15,169 nt of DNA from Belnapia sp. (lineage in GTDB: Bacteria > Pseudomonadota > Alphaproteobacteria > Acetobacterales > Acetobacteraceae), in NCBI GenBank assembly GCA_028291445.1, contig JAQGIA010000422.1:1-15169 (forward strand), written 5' to 3'. The notes under the pieces were generated by a model. It was not told the DNA's origin. It was given only the letters and a program-made list of their open reading frames with translations, and ran no database searches. The position numbers and the translations under genes are program-made. Positions 10,207-15,169 of this stretch are shown here, in pieces. Numbering within the stretch: position 1 is the first letter of the stretch; every line of letters starts with the position of its first letter.

Positions 10207-11031
10207 ATGCCGATCCTGACCGTGCAGCCTGGCGTCGACATCTTCTACAAGGATTGGGGTACCGGGCAGCCGGTGGTCTTCCATCACGGCTGGCCGCTGA
10301 GCGCCGATGATTGGGACGCGCAAATGCTGTTCTTCCTGCATCAGGGCTATCGCGTTATCGCGCATGACCGGCGCGGTCACGGCCGGTCGTCCCAGGTCGC
10401 CGATGGCCATGACATGGACACCTATGCCGCCGACGTGGCGGCGCTGGCGGCGGCGCTCGACCTGCGGGAGGCGATCCATGTCGGGCACTCGACCGGCGGC
10501 GGCGAGGTCGCCCGCTACGTCGCGCGCCATGGCCAGGATCGCGTCGCCAAGGCCGTGCTCATCGGTGCGGTGCCGCCGATCATGGTGCGGACGGCCGCCA
10601 ATCCCGGCGGCCTGCCCATCGCGGTATTCGACGGCTTCCGCGCCGCATTGGCCGCCAATCGCGCGCAGTTCTTCCGCGACGTGCCCGCGGGCCCCTTCTA
10701 TGGCTTCAACCGCGAGGGCGCCGCCGTCTCGCCCGGCGTCATCGATAATTGGTGGCGCCAGGGCATGATGGGCAGCGCCCAGGCGCATTACGACTGCATC
10801 AAGGCCTTCTCGGAAACCGATTTCACCGAGGATCTGCGGGCCATCGCGGTACCGACGCTGGTGCTGCATGGCGACGACGACCAGATCGTCCCGGTCGCCG
10901 ATGCGGCGGAGCTTTCGATCAAGCTGCTGCGCAACGGCACGCTGAAAATCTACCCGGGCTATCCGCACGGCATGTGCACCACCCATGCCGAGACGATCAA
11001 TGCTGACCTGCTGCGCTTCTTCCGGTCCTGA
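10207..11031 (+). CDS. Alpha/beta hydrolase, non-heme chloroperoxidase/arylesterase type
   Basis: A 274-residue alpha/beta-hydrolase of full family length. [15 protein letters not shown] gives the oxyanion-hole region; [11 protein letters not shown] is the usual strand-4 turn. The nucleophile S95 is in [17 protein letters not shown], the acid D225 in [10 protein letters not shown] and H254 in YPHGM. The S-D-H spacing equals that of bacterial cofactor-free haloperoxidases (S98, D228, H257). These enzymes hydrolyse esters and can form peracids that oxidise halides in vitro; the physiological substrate is usually unknown. ggag lies six bases before the ATG. It stands alone on the plus strand, converging on the SDR gene. 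No signal peptide, so cytoplasmic. Confidence 0.92.
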
Positions 11032-11093
11032 TATCTGGCGGCGCTACCACTGGCTCTGAATCGGCAAGGTGCTCGCCGGTCATCGTGGCGAAA

Positions 11094-11123
11094 GCGGCAG
11101 GATCGTAGCGTTGCACCTGCCGC
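11094..11123. terminator. Candidate bidirectional terminator between convergent genes
   Basis: gcggcagg (11094-11101) and cctgccgc (11116-11123) around a 14-base loop, in the 98-base gap between the hydrolase and SDR stops. On the leftward transcript the stem is followed by a short tttcg. Modest stem and weak tail. Confidence 0.35.
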
Positions 11124-11129
11124 AGCCCG

Positions 11130-11894
11130 CTACCGTCCCCCCGCCACGTCGAGGGTGACGCCGGTGACGTAGCTTGCCTCGTCCGATGCCAGGAACAGCA
11201 CCGCGTCGGCGATCTCGCGGGGTTGCCCGATCCGCCGCATCGGCACCATGCGATCGGGGCTGTGCTCGAGCGTCGCATTCATCTCGGCGAAGACCGCACG
11301 GGTCTTGTCGGTTTCGATCGGCCCGGGCGCCACCGCATTGATGCGAACGCCGAGCGCCGAGACTTCGAGCGCGACATCCCGGATGAAGCCGTGGATACCG
11401 GCCTTGGCGGCGGCATAGGCGGCCCCGCCGGAATGCGCGGCCGTCCAGGGTGTGCCCTCCCGCGAGCCCGACGACATGCAGACGATGCTGCCGCTGCGGC
11501 GCGCCATCATCGCGGGCAATACGGCGCGGGTGCAGAGGAAGGTCGGGCGTAGATTGAGGCGCAGCGTGAAATCCCAGTCCGCCGCCGACATCTCCCAGAT
11601 CCTGGCGTTGCGGCTGCCGCCGACATTGTTCACCAGCACATCGACCGGCCCAAGCTCGGCCTGGATGCGGGCGAAGGCCTGCTGCACCACCGCTTCCTCG
11701 GTGACGTCGCCGGAACATGTCGTCACCTCCGTGCCGGAGGCGCGCAACTCGGCTGCCAGCGCCTGCAGGCCGGGCTCGTCGATGTCCAGCAGGGCAAGCC
11801 TGGCGCCCTCCTGGCCGAGCCGGCGGGCGATGGCCTGCCCCAGGCCATTGGCCGCACCGGTGACGACGGTGACCTTGTCCTGCAACCGGGCCAT
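11130..11894 (-). CDS. Short-chain dehydrogenase/reductase (SDR), classical
   Basis: A 254-residue classical SDR with the full set of motifs: cofactor motif TGAANGLG (12-19), D37 at the end of strand 2 (LLDID, pointing to NAD(H) preference), NNVGG (89-93), active-site Ser in CMSSGS (141-142), Y160 and K164 in YAAAK, and INAVAPGPIETD after it. These enzymes oxidise secondary alcohols or reduce ketones; the substrate cannot be read from sequence. It lies 109 bases downstream of the MFS exporter gene on the same strand and may be the last gene of the nitrile-hydratase-family operon, though the gap allows a separate promoter. Confidence 0.93.
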   Translation of the reverse strand: MARLQDKVTVVTGAANGLGQAIARRLGQEGARLALLDIDEPGLQALAAELRASGTEVTTCSGDVTEEAVVQQAFARIQAELGPVDVLVNNVGGSRNARIWEMSAADWDFTLRLNLRPTFLCTRAVLPAMMARRSGSIVCMSSGSREGTPWTAAHSGGAAYAAAKAGIHGFIRDVALEVSALGVRINAVAPGPIETDKTRAVFAEMNATLEHSPDRMVPMRRIGQPREIADAVLFLASDEASYVTGVTLDVAGGR

Positions 11895-12003: not shown

Positions 12004-13350
12004 TTAAAGCCGTCCCCGCAGCATGCTGAACACCGCGGCGGCGAGGGCGAAGCCGACCCCTGCCGCCAGCGCCAGCTTGGGCCCGCCGCCGAGCTGGAAG
12101 GCGATCGCCACCAGCGTCGTCCCCAGCGTCTGCCCGGCCAGCCGTGCCGTCGCCTGCATGCCGCCGGCGCCGCCGCTGCGCGCCATCGGCGCAGCCAGGA
12201 GCATGGTGCGGTTGTTGGGGGTCTGGAAGAAGCCGAAGCCGGCCCCGGCCACCGCGACGGCGACCGCCAGCACCGGGATCGGCGAGGCGCCCGGCAGCAG
12301 CACCAGCGCCAGCAATGCGACGGACAGCACGCTGCCCCCCAGCATGCACAGCAGCGCCGTCGGCAGGCGGTCCGACAGCCGCCCCGCCAGCGGTGCCGCA
12401 ATGGCCAGCGCCAGCGGCCAGGGCGTCATCAGCACCCCGGTTTCCACTTGGTTGTGGCCATTGGCGATGAAGTGGAAGGGCAGCGACACGAAGCTCAGCG
12501 ACCAGGCGGCGAAGGCACAGACCGAGGCGGCGACGGAGGCCGCGACGGCCGGCAGCCGCAGCAAGTCGAGCGGCAGCAGCGGCGTCGGCGTCGCCAGATC
12601 CCGCCGCACCAGCGCCAGGGCCGCGACCGTCCCCAGGGCGAGCCCGGTCACCCCCACCAGCGGCAGCGTCAACAGCAGGTCCAGGCCGAGGAAGATCAGC
12701 CCGAAGGCCAACGCCGCCAGTCCCGCCGCCGTCCAATCGAAGCGCCGGCGCGCCCGTGGCGTCTGCGGCAGGGTGAGGTAGCCGACCACGATGCCGACGA
12801 TCCCGAGCGGCACGTTCACCGCGAACAACCAGGGCCACGGGCCCAGCGCCAGGATGGTGGAGCCGATCGTCGGACCCGCCGCCGCCGAGATGGCGACGGT
12901 CATCGCATTCACCCCGATCGCCCGGCCGAGCTGCCGCGACGGATAGGTGTAGCGCACCAGCCCCGCGGTCAGCGCCATGACCGCCGAGGCGCCCAGCCCC
13001 TGCACCACGCGGGCCGCGACCAGCAGCGGGAAGGTCGGGGCCAGCGCGCAGCCCAGCGAGGCGCCGACATAGACCACCATCCCGGCCAGGAAGACCCGGC
13101 GGAAGCCGAGGATCTCGGCCAGCGAGGCGAAGGAGATGAGCGTCGCCACCACCACCACCTGATAGCCATTGGTCAGCCAGATCACCCTGGCCGGATCGAC
13201 CCCGAGATCCCGCCCGATCGCCGGCAGCGCCACGTTGATCATGGCGGTATCGAGCACGGTGATGACGATGGAAACCAAGATGGCGGCGACCGCGAAGCTG
13301 CGGCGCGGCTCCGGCAGGCCGTCCTCGGCTGTCGGTGTCACCTCGGCCAT
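12004..13350 (-). CDS. DHA2-family MFS drug/metabolite exporter
   Basis: A 448-residue membrane protein with about 14 hydrophobic segments, as in the DHA2 (EmrB/QacA/SmvA) family. Segment 1 carries the signature LDTAMINVALPAI with a membrane-embedded Asp. WLTNGYQVV opens segment 2, and LGFRRVFLAG corresponds to the motif-A loop. VQGLGASAVMALT and GPTIGSTILALGPWPWLFAVNVPLG match the motif B and C regions. Such proteins export toxic compounds by proton antiport. It lies 93 bases downstream of the nitrile-hydratase-family alpha gene, same strand. A short hairpin (13361-13377) in the mRNA stands about ten bases before the ATG and no good ribosome site is visible, so translation may be low or controlled. 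The exported substrate is unknown. Confidence 0.9.
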   Translation of the reverse strand: MAEVTPTAEDGLPEPRRSFAVAAILVSIVITVLDTAMINVALPAIGRDLGVDPARVIWLTNGYQVVVVATLISFASLAEILGFRRVFLAGMVVYVGASLGCALAPTFPLLVAARVVQGLGASAVMALTAGLVRYTYPSRQLGRAIGVNAMTVAISAAAGPTIGSTILALGPWPWLFAVNVPLGIVGIVVGYLTLPQTPRARRRFDWTAAGLAALAFGLIFLGLDLLLTLPLVGVTGLALGTVAALALVRRDLATPTPLLPLDLLRLPAVAASVAASVCAFAAWSLSFVSLPFHFIANGHNQVETGVLMTPWPLALAIAAPLAGRLSDRLPTALLCMLGGSVLSVALLALVLLPGASPIPVLAVAVAVAGAGFGFFQTPNNRTMLLAAPMARSGGAGGMQATARLAGQTLGTTLVAIAFQLGGGPKLALAAGVGFALAAAVFSMLRGRL

Positions 13351-13443: not shown

Positions 13444-14046
13444 CTACTCGGCGGCCATGGCCACCGGAAGCCGCGGCAGCGCAACCCCGACCAGCACGTC
13501 GCGCGTGACCAGGGCGGCGAGCTGCTCCTCGGTCCAGCCCTCGGTGCCTTCGGGGCGCAGCGGCAGCACCATCCAGCGGTAATCGGCGGTGCTGTCGATG
13601 ACCCGGAGCTGCACGCCGGCCGGCACGCTGGTGCCCCACTCAGCCAGCACCGCGCGCGGCTCCCGCACCGCCCGCGACCGGTATTCGAAGGATTTGTACC
13701 AATGCGGCGGATAGCCGAGCACCGCGCGCGGGTAGCAGCTGCACAGGGTGCAAACCACCAGATGGTGCAGGCTGGGCGTATCCTCGAGGATGCCGAGCGG
13801 CGGGGCGCCGGCCATCGAGACGCCCATCTGCTCGGCGGCGGCGGCGCCATTGGCCACCATGAATTGGCGCCATGCGGGGTCGAGCCAGGCCTTGGCCACC
13901 ATGCGGGCGCCGATTTCCGGGCTGGCGCGATCGGTGCTGGCCTGGCGGGCGGCGATCTCCGCCTCGGACACCAGGCCCTTGGCCTTCAGCGCGGTGATCA
14001 GCTTCTCGAGCAGGGCCAGGGATTCGGGACGGGCGGGCGCGCTCAT
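13444..14046 (-). CDS. Nitrile-hydratase-family alpha subunit (thiocyanate hydrolase gamma-like), cobalt-type
   Basis: A 200-residue metal-binding subunit. The metal site is VVCTLCSCYP (C99, C102, C104). The Thr in CTLCSC is the hallmark of the cobalt-type centre, whereas iron types have CSLCSC. C102 and C104 would be the two cysteines oxidised to sulfinic and sulfenic acid. RVIDSTADYRWMVLPLRPEGTEGWTEEQLAALVTRDVLVGVALP is the standard C-terminal region of the family. Nitrile hydratases turn nitriles into amides; thiocyanate hydrolase, whose gamma subunit is homologous, turns thiocyanate into carbonyl sulfide and ammonia. ATG 14046 overlaps the stop of the preceding subunit gene (ATGA at 14046-14043), which picks this start over the upstream ones. 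The choice between nitrile and thiocyanate as substrate is open. Confidence 0.92.
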   Translation of the reverse strand: MSAPARPESLALLEKLITALKAKGLVSEAEIAARQASTDRASPEIGARMVAKAWLDPAWRQFMVANGAAAAEQMGVSMAGAPPLGILEDTPSLHHLVVCTLCSCYPRAVLGYPPHWYKSFEYRSRAVREPRAVLAEWGTSVPAGVQLRVIDSTADYRWMVLPLRPEGTEGWTEEQLAALVTRDVLVGVALPRLPVAMAAE

Positions 14047-14360
14047 GCTGCTTCTTTCGATGCTGAGGGGGTCGGGCTCGCCGGCTCCAGCCAATGCTCG
14101 AAGATTTCCACCAGCAGGCTGTCGCCGGCCTCGCCTTCGGACCAGATCGGCGGCTGGTCGAACAGGATGTGGTACAGCGGCCGCGCCGGGGCCGGCCGGG
14201 CGAAGGCGAGGTCCTCCGGATTGGGGAAGCTGCCGAGCACCCGCTCCACCGTGCCGCTGCGCCCACGCAGATAATGTGGCGTGCGGATATGGCAGCGGCC
14301 ACGCCGCTCCGGCCAGTCGTCCTTCACCTGCACCCGGTCGCCGGGCTGGAAGGCGCTCAT
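14043..14360 (-). CDS. Nitrile-hydratase beta C-half subunit (thiocyanate hydrolase alpha-like)
   Basis: A 105-residue protein matching only the C-terminal domain of nitrile hydratase beta: FQPGDRVQVKDDWPERRGRCHIRTPHYLRGRSGTVERVLGSFPNPEDLA, then LYHILFDQPPIWSEGEAGDSLLVEIFEHWLEP. This is the SH3-like barrel that packs on the metal site. The pattern xHxRxPxYxRG holds arginines that in the family contact the oxidised cysteines. Ordinary beta subunits are about 210-230 residues with this as their second half; here it is a free-standing gene. It overlaps both neighbours by ATGA (14360-14357 and 14046-14043), so the three proteins are almost certainly made in fixed proportion. Confidence 0.9.
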   Translation of the reverse strand: MSAFQPGDRVQVKDDWPERRGRCHIRTPHYLRGRSGTVERVLGSFPNPEDLAFARPAPARPLYHILFDQPPIWSEGEAGDSLLVEIFEHWLEPASPTPSASKEAA

Positions 14361-14647
14361 CGCACCTCCTCCGCGGCGATCACGCCCTTCTCGACCATCA
14401 GCGTGGTGATCGAGGTGAGCCAGCGCTCGTAATAGGTCAGGGTGAAGTATTCGGCCTCGGGGATGGATTCGATGCCCCGCCGGAGCTCGTCCACCGTCAT
14501 CATTTTCTTCTGCGCCAGGATCTGCCGCAGCGCATCGACCCGCTTGCCGAAATCATCCGGCGGCGCCTCGTCGCGCTCGACGGGGGTGCAACGATAGCGG
14601 CTGGCGCCGCCGAGATCATGGATGGCCGGGATGGGGACGTCGCTCAT
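14357..14647 (-). CDS. Nitrile-hydratase beta N-half subunit (thiocyanate hydrolase beta-like) or accessory protein
   Basis: A 96-residue protein matching the N-terminal half of nitrile hydratase beta: IPAIHDLGGASRY near the start, then RRGIESIPEAEYFTLTYYERWLTSITTLMVEKGVI, the helical hairpin that wraps the alpha subunit. YYERWL carries a conserved Arg expected near the metal site. Small accessory/activator proteins of cobalt nitrile hydratases (P14K/NhlE type) share this fold, so an activator role is the alternative. Because the matching C-half is encoded separately next door, the simplest reading is a split beta subunit. First of three coupled genes. The ATG at 14647 has no clear ribosome site, an in-frame TAG lies just upstream, and no other start is credible. 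Confidence 0.85.
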   Translation of the reverse strand: MSDVPIPAIHDLGGASRYRCTPVERDEAPPDDFGKRVDALRQILAQKKMMTVDELRRGIESIPEAEYFTLTYYERWLTSITTLMVEKGVIAAEEVR

Positions 14648-14680: not shown

Positions 14681-14712
14681 CCAGCTTTCCTCAGTCCCAG
14701 CTTTGCTCAGTC
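14681..14712. repeat. 16-bp tandem duplication at the 3' end of the SH3 gene
   Basis: ccagctttcctcagtc (14681-14696) is followed directly by ccagctttgctcagtc (14697-14712), one mismatch. The second copy contains the SH3 gene's stop codon (14709-14707). The first copy lies in the 59-base gap before the enzyme operon. Confidence 0.9.
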
Positions 14713-15169
14713 TATGACCTCGTCCGCCGCCACGCCCCAGATCTCGCTGCGCTTGATCCAGCCGCGGTAATCGCCGACCCGCGCCTCGCACCAGCCGCTG
14801 CCGGCCTCGCAATGGCGGAGGCTGCCGATCACCCCGGGCCGCAGCCGGGCGACGGGCTCCGCCGCATCCTCCGGCCGCCGCCGCAGCGCCCGCTCCTCGC
14901 CCTGCACCAGGAAGGTACGGCGGGCCGCGAGCAGCGGCTTCTGCACCCAGCCCTCGGTGCCTTCCGGGTCGCGGATGCGGCGCCAGGCCTGATGCTCCTC
15001 GACGATCTGCACCGGCAGGTCCTTGCGCTGATAGGTCCAGTCGATGCGGAAGCGCAGGTCCGGCCCGACCCGCAGGTTGACCTGGTTGGACCCGAGCGCG
15101 GCGAAGCGGGGCAGCGGGCGGCCGGTATCGGTGCCGACCGCGGGGGGCGCCGGCGGTGCGGGGGCGGGC
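14707..15169 (-). CDS. SH3-domain protein, C-terminal part (5' end beyond window)
   Basis: The last 153 codons of a leftward gene whose start lies right of the window. After a Pro/Ala-rich stretch there are two bacterial SH3-like repeats. The first is PRFAALGSNQVNLRVGPDLRFRIDWTYQRKDLPVQIVEEHQAWRRIRDPEGTEGWVQKPLL, the second ERALRRRPEDAAEPVARLRPGVIGSLRHCEAGSGWCEARVGDYRGWIKRSEIWGV. VNLRVGP is the usual SH3_3 opening and EGWV/RGWI the closing strands. Such alphaproteobacterial proteins are usually exported and cell-wall associated, but the signal peptide would be outside the window. It is 59 bases upstream of the nitrile-hydratase-family genes on the same strand; whether they share a transcript is unclear. 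Confidence 0.85.
   Translation of the reverse strand, partial: PAPAPPAPPAVGTDTGRPLPRFAALGSNQVNLRVGPDLRFRIDWTYQRKDLPVQIVEEHQAWRRIRDPEGTEGWVQKPLLAARRTFLVQGEERALRRRPEDAAEPVARLRPGVIGSLRHCEAGSGWCEARVGDYRGWIKRSEIWGVAADEVID

Follow-up and report, generated by a model that had tools for sequence, protein, structure and literature searches.

We propose that the operon found in the window, by which we mean the whole stretch of 15,169 nucleotides of a Belnapia sp. contig that was analyzed, encodes a three-chain nitrile hydratase of the cobalt type, which would hydrate a nitrile to the amide and in which the separately encoded N-terminal half of the beta subunit (N-half) would also serve as the cobalt loader. 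We give this reading a probability of roughly 0.7. The kind of layout is already known, and the enzyme is a relative of that from Streptomyces canus; the Acetobacteraceae clade to which it belongs is distinct from the S. canus type. On its sequence, the enzyme is best read as a member of a widespread group with an arginine in the pocket. The genes and the features discussed below are as follows.

14707..15168, minus strand: bacterial SH3_4 protein, upstream neighbor, running off the window (PF06347, E 3.9e-27)
14357..14647, minus strand: beta N-half (AnhD-like), 96 aa (PF21006 NHase_beta_N, E 1.3e-17)
14357..14360, minus strand: ATGA overlap of the N-half stop and the C-half start
14043..14360, minus strand: beta C-half (AnhE-like), 105 aa (PF02211 NHase_beta_C, E 1.5e-17)
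14043..14046, minus strand: ATGA overlap of the C-half stop and the alpha start
13444..14046, minus strand: alpha chain, 200 aa, ATG at 14046, stop TAG included (PF02979, E 6.6e-72)
13735..13752, minus strand: metal-binding claw CTLCSC of the Co type, alpha residues 99-104, read from the sequence
13726..13728, minus strand: Arg107, third residue past the claw (CTLCSC-YP-R), read from the sequence
12004..13350, minus strand: MFS transporter (DHA2-like), downstream neighbor (PF07690, E 3e-44)

The sequence-only reading had described a nitrile hydratase-family enzyme with the beta subunit split into 96 and 105 aa, in the order N-half, C-half, alpha, and with a cobalt-type claw. The open reading frames were found at those places, matches to PF02979, PF21006 and PF02211 support the family assignment, and the claw is present in the alpha chain as described. 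When compared with TIGR03888, a model of the single-chain beta subunit, the two halves cover complementary parts, positions 4-91 for the N-half and 138-226 for the C-half. The alpha chain scored 232.6 bits against TIGR01323 (NCBIfam nitrile_alph), under the cut-off of 249.85. The same chain (13447-14046, minus strand) exceeded the cut-off of the NHLP leader-peptide model TIGR03793 (62.3 bits against 50.9), and annotation by that model alone would be misleading. Comparison with six relatives showed that differences at codon position 3 outnumbered those at positions 1 and 2 combined in 17 of 18 gene comparisons, the exception being the N-half against locus L228 (19/18/32), and this excess indicates that N-half, C-half and alpha are all real genes. 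The nearest named protein relatives are from Belnapia and Acetobacteraceae. A length-filtered search returned 1682 half-length proteins similar to the N-half and 1127 similar to the C-half, numbers from which full-length beta subunits are removed by the filter but which may still contain contig-end fragments and, for the N-half, activators.

The window genome (3.83 Mb, 75% complete) gave one PF02979 and one PF02211 match in the profile search, and what is assembled of it yielded neither a second alpha nor a second beta C-domain. Seven other genomes of the genus (97-99% complete) likewise gave one alpha and one PF02211 match each. The beta subunit is split in all seven, which rules out a sequencing accident, and a single full-length beta gene was found neither in these genomes nor in that of the window. 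The SH3_4, N-half, C-half, alpha and MFS genes occur together in all eight genus loci, window included. Among 39 loci with an alpha chain at least 58% identical to that of the window, an SH3 gene was seen in 27 and an MFS gene in 15; this set was picked by alpha identity and not by tree, includes one thiocyanate hydrolase (L255), and its counts are limited to the retrieved stretches, many of which are 4.4 kb or shorter. Neither gene was present in the 17-19 kb stretches of L012 and L013.

That an ordinary two-chain nitrile hydratase had its beta gene recently broken in this lineage would be in line with the complementary match of the halves to one beta model, and with the splits of beta in nine loci of the ordinary type elsewhere. 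On the other hand, the ATGA overlaps are clean, the genes are under coding selection, and the split is shared by the other genus genomes and by 94 non-identical loci with the order N-half, C-half, alpha (N-C-A). Recent breakage is rejected on these grounds, and we regard this alternative, which the careful tree of alpha chains described next also contradicts, as extremely unlikely.

From the 103 alpha rows of a first, larger tree, 70 were taken for a quick tree and a careful tree, on which the AU tests were run; the rows left out include L258 (a long branch), L159, L248 and L251. The careful tree, which is unrooted, has a main branch with support 100/98. It separates 24 rows of ordinary enzymes, which form a group of their own (99/93), and 6 rows of the S. 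canus type from the window, the remaining split enzymes, those with the order C-half, alpha, N-half (C-A-N), the N-alpha fusions and true thiocyanate hydrolase. The window alpha lies inside an Acetobacteraceae clade with support 100/100 and, as judged from these sequences, appears to stand apart both from the ordinary two-chain enzymes and from the S. canus type (100/98). The 103-row tree gave a similar picture, with support 98 for the side holding Streptomyces and the ordinary enzymes. A constraint that unites the window clade and the ordinary enzymes was rejected on the careful tree (AU p 0.026), and together with the 99/93 group that leaves the window outside, this led us to reject an ordinary nitrile hydratase. 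The alpha chain is thus not placed firmly among the ordinary enzymes, the outcome that the sequence-only reading had named, in combination with a full-length beta gene elsewhere, as speaking against it, although caution is called for by the quick tree of the same 70 rows, where this constraint was not rejected (AU p 0.316). A single clade of window and Streptomyces was not rejected on the quick tree either (p 0.318). Variants of the claw were seen in L205, L245 and L177; they read CMLCSC and CTQCSC, the latter placed next to the Fe-type enzyme of Rhodococcus in the tree.

To describe how the layout is distributed, a profile census of 40 Acetobacteraceae regions from 37 genomes, picked across scores and not randomly, was made. 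The split N-C-A layout was frequent, with 26 regions; the C-A-N order, an N-half fused to alpha and the ordinary alpha-beta order were each seen in 4, and in the remaining 2 alpha precedes a two-frame beta. Since the census loci were chosen by us, partly for a low PF02979 score, these fractions are not prevalences. Duplicate loci of a genome were kept in this census and in the 103-row tree but removed from the residue, activator, amidase and neighbor counts, and 2-3 'incomplete' loci were left unclassed. Regardless of layout, PF02979 was matched by 122 of the 200 Acetobacteraceae genomes searched and, at the level of the class, by 142 of a sample of 385. The N-C-A order also occurs on Planktothrix and Agrobacterium plasmids and in Streptomyces sp. 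NBC_01176, where, in contrast to the S. canus type, the alpha chain carries Arg at the position past the claw. The C-A-N order was found in six loci (L150, L153, L156, L164, L257 and L260), of which the five placed in the 103-row tree form one group (support 98) and two have a HoxN cobalt transporter nearby.

Fusion of the beta N-half to alpha through a His-rich linker was observed in four Acetobacteraceae loci (L158, L161, L172 and L177/L264, 5002-6003), and no C-half was found in their retrieved regions. The arrangement recalls the opisthokont beta-alpha fusion with a His stretch, as that is described in PMC3323583. In one genome with such a fusion (G434, a single contig of 3.37 Mb) the sole C-half is 2.3 Mb distant on the contig, or about 1.05 Mb in the opposite direction if the contig is circular, directly after an amidase gene and among ABC-transporter genes (L263:1410-3462). 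The sole PF02211 match of three further genomes (G581, G537 and G482) adjoins a different alpha gene. Nine loci (L027, L042, L045, L047, L119, L141, L143, L233 and L259) have beta N and C in different frames at near-usual spacing; these are of the ordinary type, with alpha first and Trp after the claw, and their betas represent either independent splits or frameshifts. One N-C-A locus with beta in two frames (L248, from the order of G694) has Trp after the claw and groups with the ordinary enzymes in the 103-row tree, so the presence of a split beta is no sure sign of the Arg group.

A split operon with the gene order anhD-anhE-anhA is described for S. canus CGMCC 13662, where AnhD and AnhE correspond to the N- and C-terminal parts of beta and the predicted masses of AnhD, AnhE and AnhA are 10.41, 11.35 and 21.33 kDa (PMC7329996). 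In the account given there, the nitrile hydratase was purified and assayed and hydrated acetamiprid, no activator was found, the authors infer a D2E2A2 composition, and a metal-chaperone and subunit-swapping role is assigned to AnhD (PMC7329996). We used the locus of S. canus V4I20 (L107) for comparison; the anhD and anhE forward primers of that paper match it exactly and the other two with 2 mismatches each. L107 encodes an N-half of 93 aa, a C-half of 95 aa and a CTLCSC alpha of 194 aa. It shares with the window the gene order, the chain sizes and the cobalt claw, and the S. canus system as published shares the lack of an activator. Identities to the window chains are 38% (N-half), 33% (C-half) and 46% (alpha). 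The S. canus type differs in having Leu, Ile or Val and not Arg after the claw, and in its position across the 100/98 branch. The suggestion of a compact, undescribed subgroup therefore does not hold in that form, given that an enzyme of the same size class has been purified from S. canus. No assayed member of the Acetobacteraceae clade itself was found in our literature searches.

A three-chain enzyme from a plasmid of Microvirga flocculans (Zhao 2020, as summarized in the review PMC11573777) has, like the window, two small beta-type subunits plus alpha, but its alpha gene stands between the two beta genes, and a HoxN cobalt transporter lies nearby. M. terrae, of the same genus, has a locus (L257) whose alpha carries Arg past the claw, falls on the same side of the main branch as the window and is 53% identical to the window alpha; the gene order of L257, like that of L260, is C-A-N as against N-C-A. 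The toyocamycin nitrile hydratase ToyJKL likewise has three subunits, and its alpha alone has been reported active, according to the discussion in PMC7329996. Ordinary Co- and Fe-type NthAB enzymes share with the window the alpha family and claw, the beta domains and a conserved Arg pair, but their beta is encoded by one gene, an activator gene usually accompanies them, the residue past the claw is mostly Trp, and they form their own 99/93 group.

The residue that follows CTLCSC-YP separates these groups. It is Trp in 57 of 63 ordinary alphas (order alpha, beta N, beta C; A-N-C) and Leu, Ile or Val in all 32 readable alphas of the actinobacterial set (S. canus type, 35 in total). The N-C-A alphas outside that set (n=94) have Arg in 87 and Lys in 5 cases, and Val was read at this position in L232. 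All six C-A-N and all four N-alpha fusion alphas carry Arg, which brings the count of Arg to 97 of 104 when the split and N-alpha-fused forms outside the actinobacterial set are taken together. Other residues marked in the beta halves are Leu55, Arg56, Glu60 and Tyr72/73 of the N-half and His24 and Arg26 of the C-half. Arg is found at the Arg56 position in 92 of 94 N-C-A rows and at the Arg26 position in all 94. Glu60 and His24 are the equivalents of AnhD-Glu56 and AnhE-His21 (numbering checked on L107), both of which are thus kept, and which are described as important in ScNHase (PMC13243292).

Among the substrates that the sequence-only reading had considered was thiocyanate, and the operon could accordingly be one for a compact thiocyanate hydrolase (SCNase; ScnB-ScnA-ScnC), which would convert SCN- to carbonyl sulfide and ammonia. 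The ScnB-ScnA-ScnC gene order is N-half, C-half, alpha, as in the window, and Arg107 corresponds to SCNase gamma Arg136. Split beta and the CTLCSC claw are shared as well, and Arg follows the claw in the SCNase loci L254 and L255, as it does in the window. True SCNases moreover are not separated from the window by the main branch, and a clade of window and SCNase was rejected neither on the quick tree (AU p 0.617), where this constraint raised the likelihood by 8.6, nor on the careful tree (0.345). However, since most split alphas carry it, Arg after the claw is not specific to SCNase, and the window alpha scored only 196.2 bits against TIGR03887 (cut-off 291.45), 95 bits short of a threshold that L254 and L255 pass with 357 and 359 bits. 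This shortfall indicates that the enzyme probably does not belong to the thiocyanate hydrolases. The second pocket arginine of SCNase is presumably beta Arg90, equivalent to Leu55 of the window N-half. At this position all three SCNase-clade sequences have Arg, and they have Asn and Tyr where the window has Glu60 and His24; the third of these sequences, the split relative L159 (Acetobacteraceae G430), is assigned by its position in the 103-row tree only, where it groups with L254 and L255. The window enzyme would thus seem to have half of the SCNase pocket, with Arg107 but without the second Arg. Its chains are also shorter, 96/105/200 as against 157/126/243, the SCNase lengths given in the sequence-only reading, which agree with PDB 2dd4 B/A/C. 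On the strength of the profile score and the three differing positions the thiocyanate hydrolase reading is disfavored, and we consider it very unlikely, although the sequence still leaves some room for thiocyanate or another pseudohalide as substrate. In L254 and L255, which come from Azospirillum ramasamyi and Roseomonas marmotae plasmids, a genuine scnC stands with one fused protein resembling ScnB-ScnA; a true ScnC over the cut-off was detected in none of 398 genomes from the phylum and none of 390 from the order of G694.

For the favored reading, a nitrile hydratase with a bifunctional N-half, the activator is of particular importance. TIGR03889, the activator model, was matched over its cut-off in all seven control genomes chosen for an ordinary nitrile hydratase. 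It was matched in none of the 13 Acetobacteraceae genomes selected as carriers of the split type, nor in the window genome (75% complete) or the seven other genus genomes, and six Streptomyces genomes with an S. canus-type operon showed only one sub-threshold match each. The retrieved regions gave the same pattern, with an activator-like gene in 41 of 65 ordinary A-N-C loci and 7 of 9 A-N-C loci with a two-frame beta, and in none of 94 N-C-A, 35 actinobacterial, 6 C-A-N and 4 N-alpha fusion loci. The absence of the activator from split-type genomes and loci generalizes the finding in S. canus and suggests that the N-half is likely a chaperone; most likely it doubles as the cobalt chaperone of the enzyme. 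The NicO cobalt transporter (PF03824) was found in two of eight genus genomes, and a search for it gave nothing in that of the window or in five of the seven others.

The neighboring genes bear on the substrate. Amidase-like genes were present in the retrieved regions of 5 of 94 N-C-A, 3 of 4 N-alpha fusion and 7 of 65 ordinary loci; three of the five N-C-A regions concerned are of the type with Lys after the claw, and in Agrobacterium rubi the order is amidase-N-C-alpha. Amidases beside split or fused loci fit a route from nitrile via amide to acid. No amidase was seen among the scanned neighbors of the window operon, and this, the Arg at the pocket position and the link to the MFS transporter that is conserved in the nearest relatives could also point to a three-chain hydratase for one specialized nitrile, as in ToyJKL, or for an anionic cyano compound. 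Against it, no biosynthetic cluster, including toyocamycin/sangivamycin genes, was recognized beside the operon in the window, and we judge such a dedicated enzyme to be rather unlikely. An alpha/beta hydrolase gene (plus strand) and an SDR dehydrogenase gene (minus strand) adjoin the MFS gene at window positions 10207-11894; each stayed under the cut-off of its best 25 NCBIfam models. An ABH-like gene also adjoins two of the C-A-N loci (L156 and L164).

As a mechanism for the three-chain nitrile hydratase, we suggest that the beta halves made from the separate overlapping genes assemble with alpha, probably as N2C2A2 by analogy with S. canus. Alpha would bind Co(III) through CTLCSC, with two of its cysteines oxidized as expected for the family, and the conserved Arg56 of the N-half and Arg26 of the C-half would complete the metal site. 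The N-half, which is homologous to activators, would most likely load cobalt into alpha by subunit swapping, as reported for AnhD of S. canus, and the complex would then hydrate a nitrile to its amide. Arg107 would place a positive charge where the ordinary enzymes have Trp, and the natural substrate may therefore be small and polar or anionic.

More tentatively, the three-chain form with a bifunctional N-half might have come first in the family as a whole, with beta fusion and a distinct activator, as in the industrial nitrile hydratases, being later developments, and SCNase might have arisen from the split group with the Arg pocket by gaining the second pocket Arg. The clade of the window would then be a living form of what preceded thiocyanate hydrolase, acting on a small anionic or polar cyano substrate, a scenario that we offer as an idea and consider doubtful.

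Nitrile hydratases are industrial catalysts, and their dependence on an activator is a nuisance in production. A large group of three-chain enzymes whose tested genomes lack the activator provides material for asking whether the N-half acts as the chaperone. In addition, an enzyme with Arg after the claw but without the second Arg of SCNase would allow the origin of thiocyanate specificity to be tested by the exchange of one or two residues.
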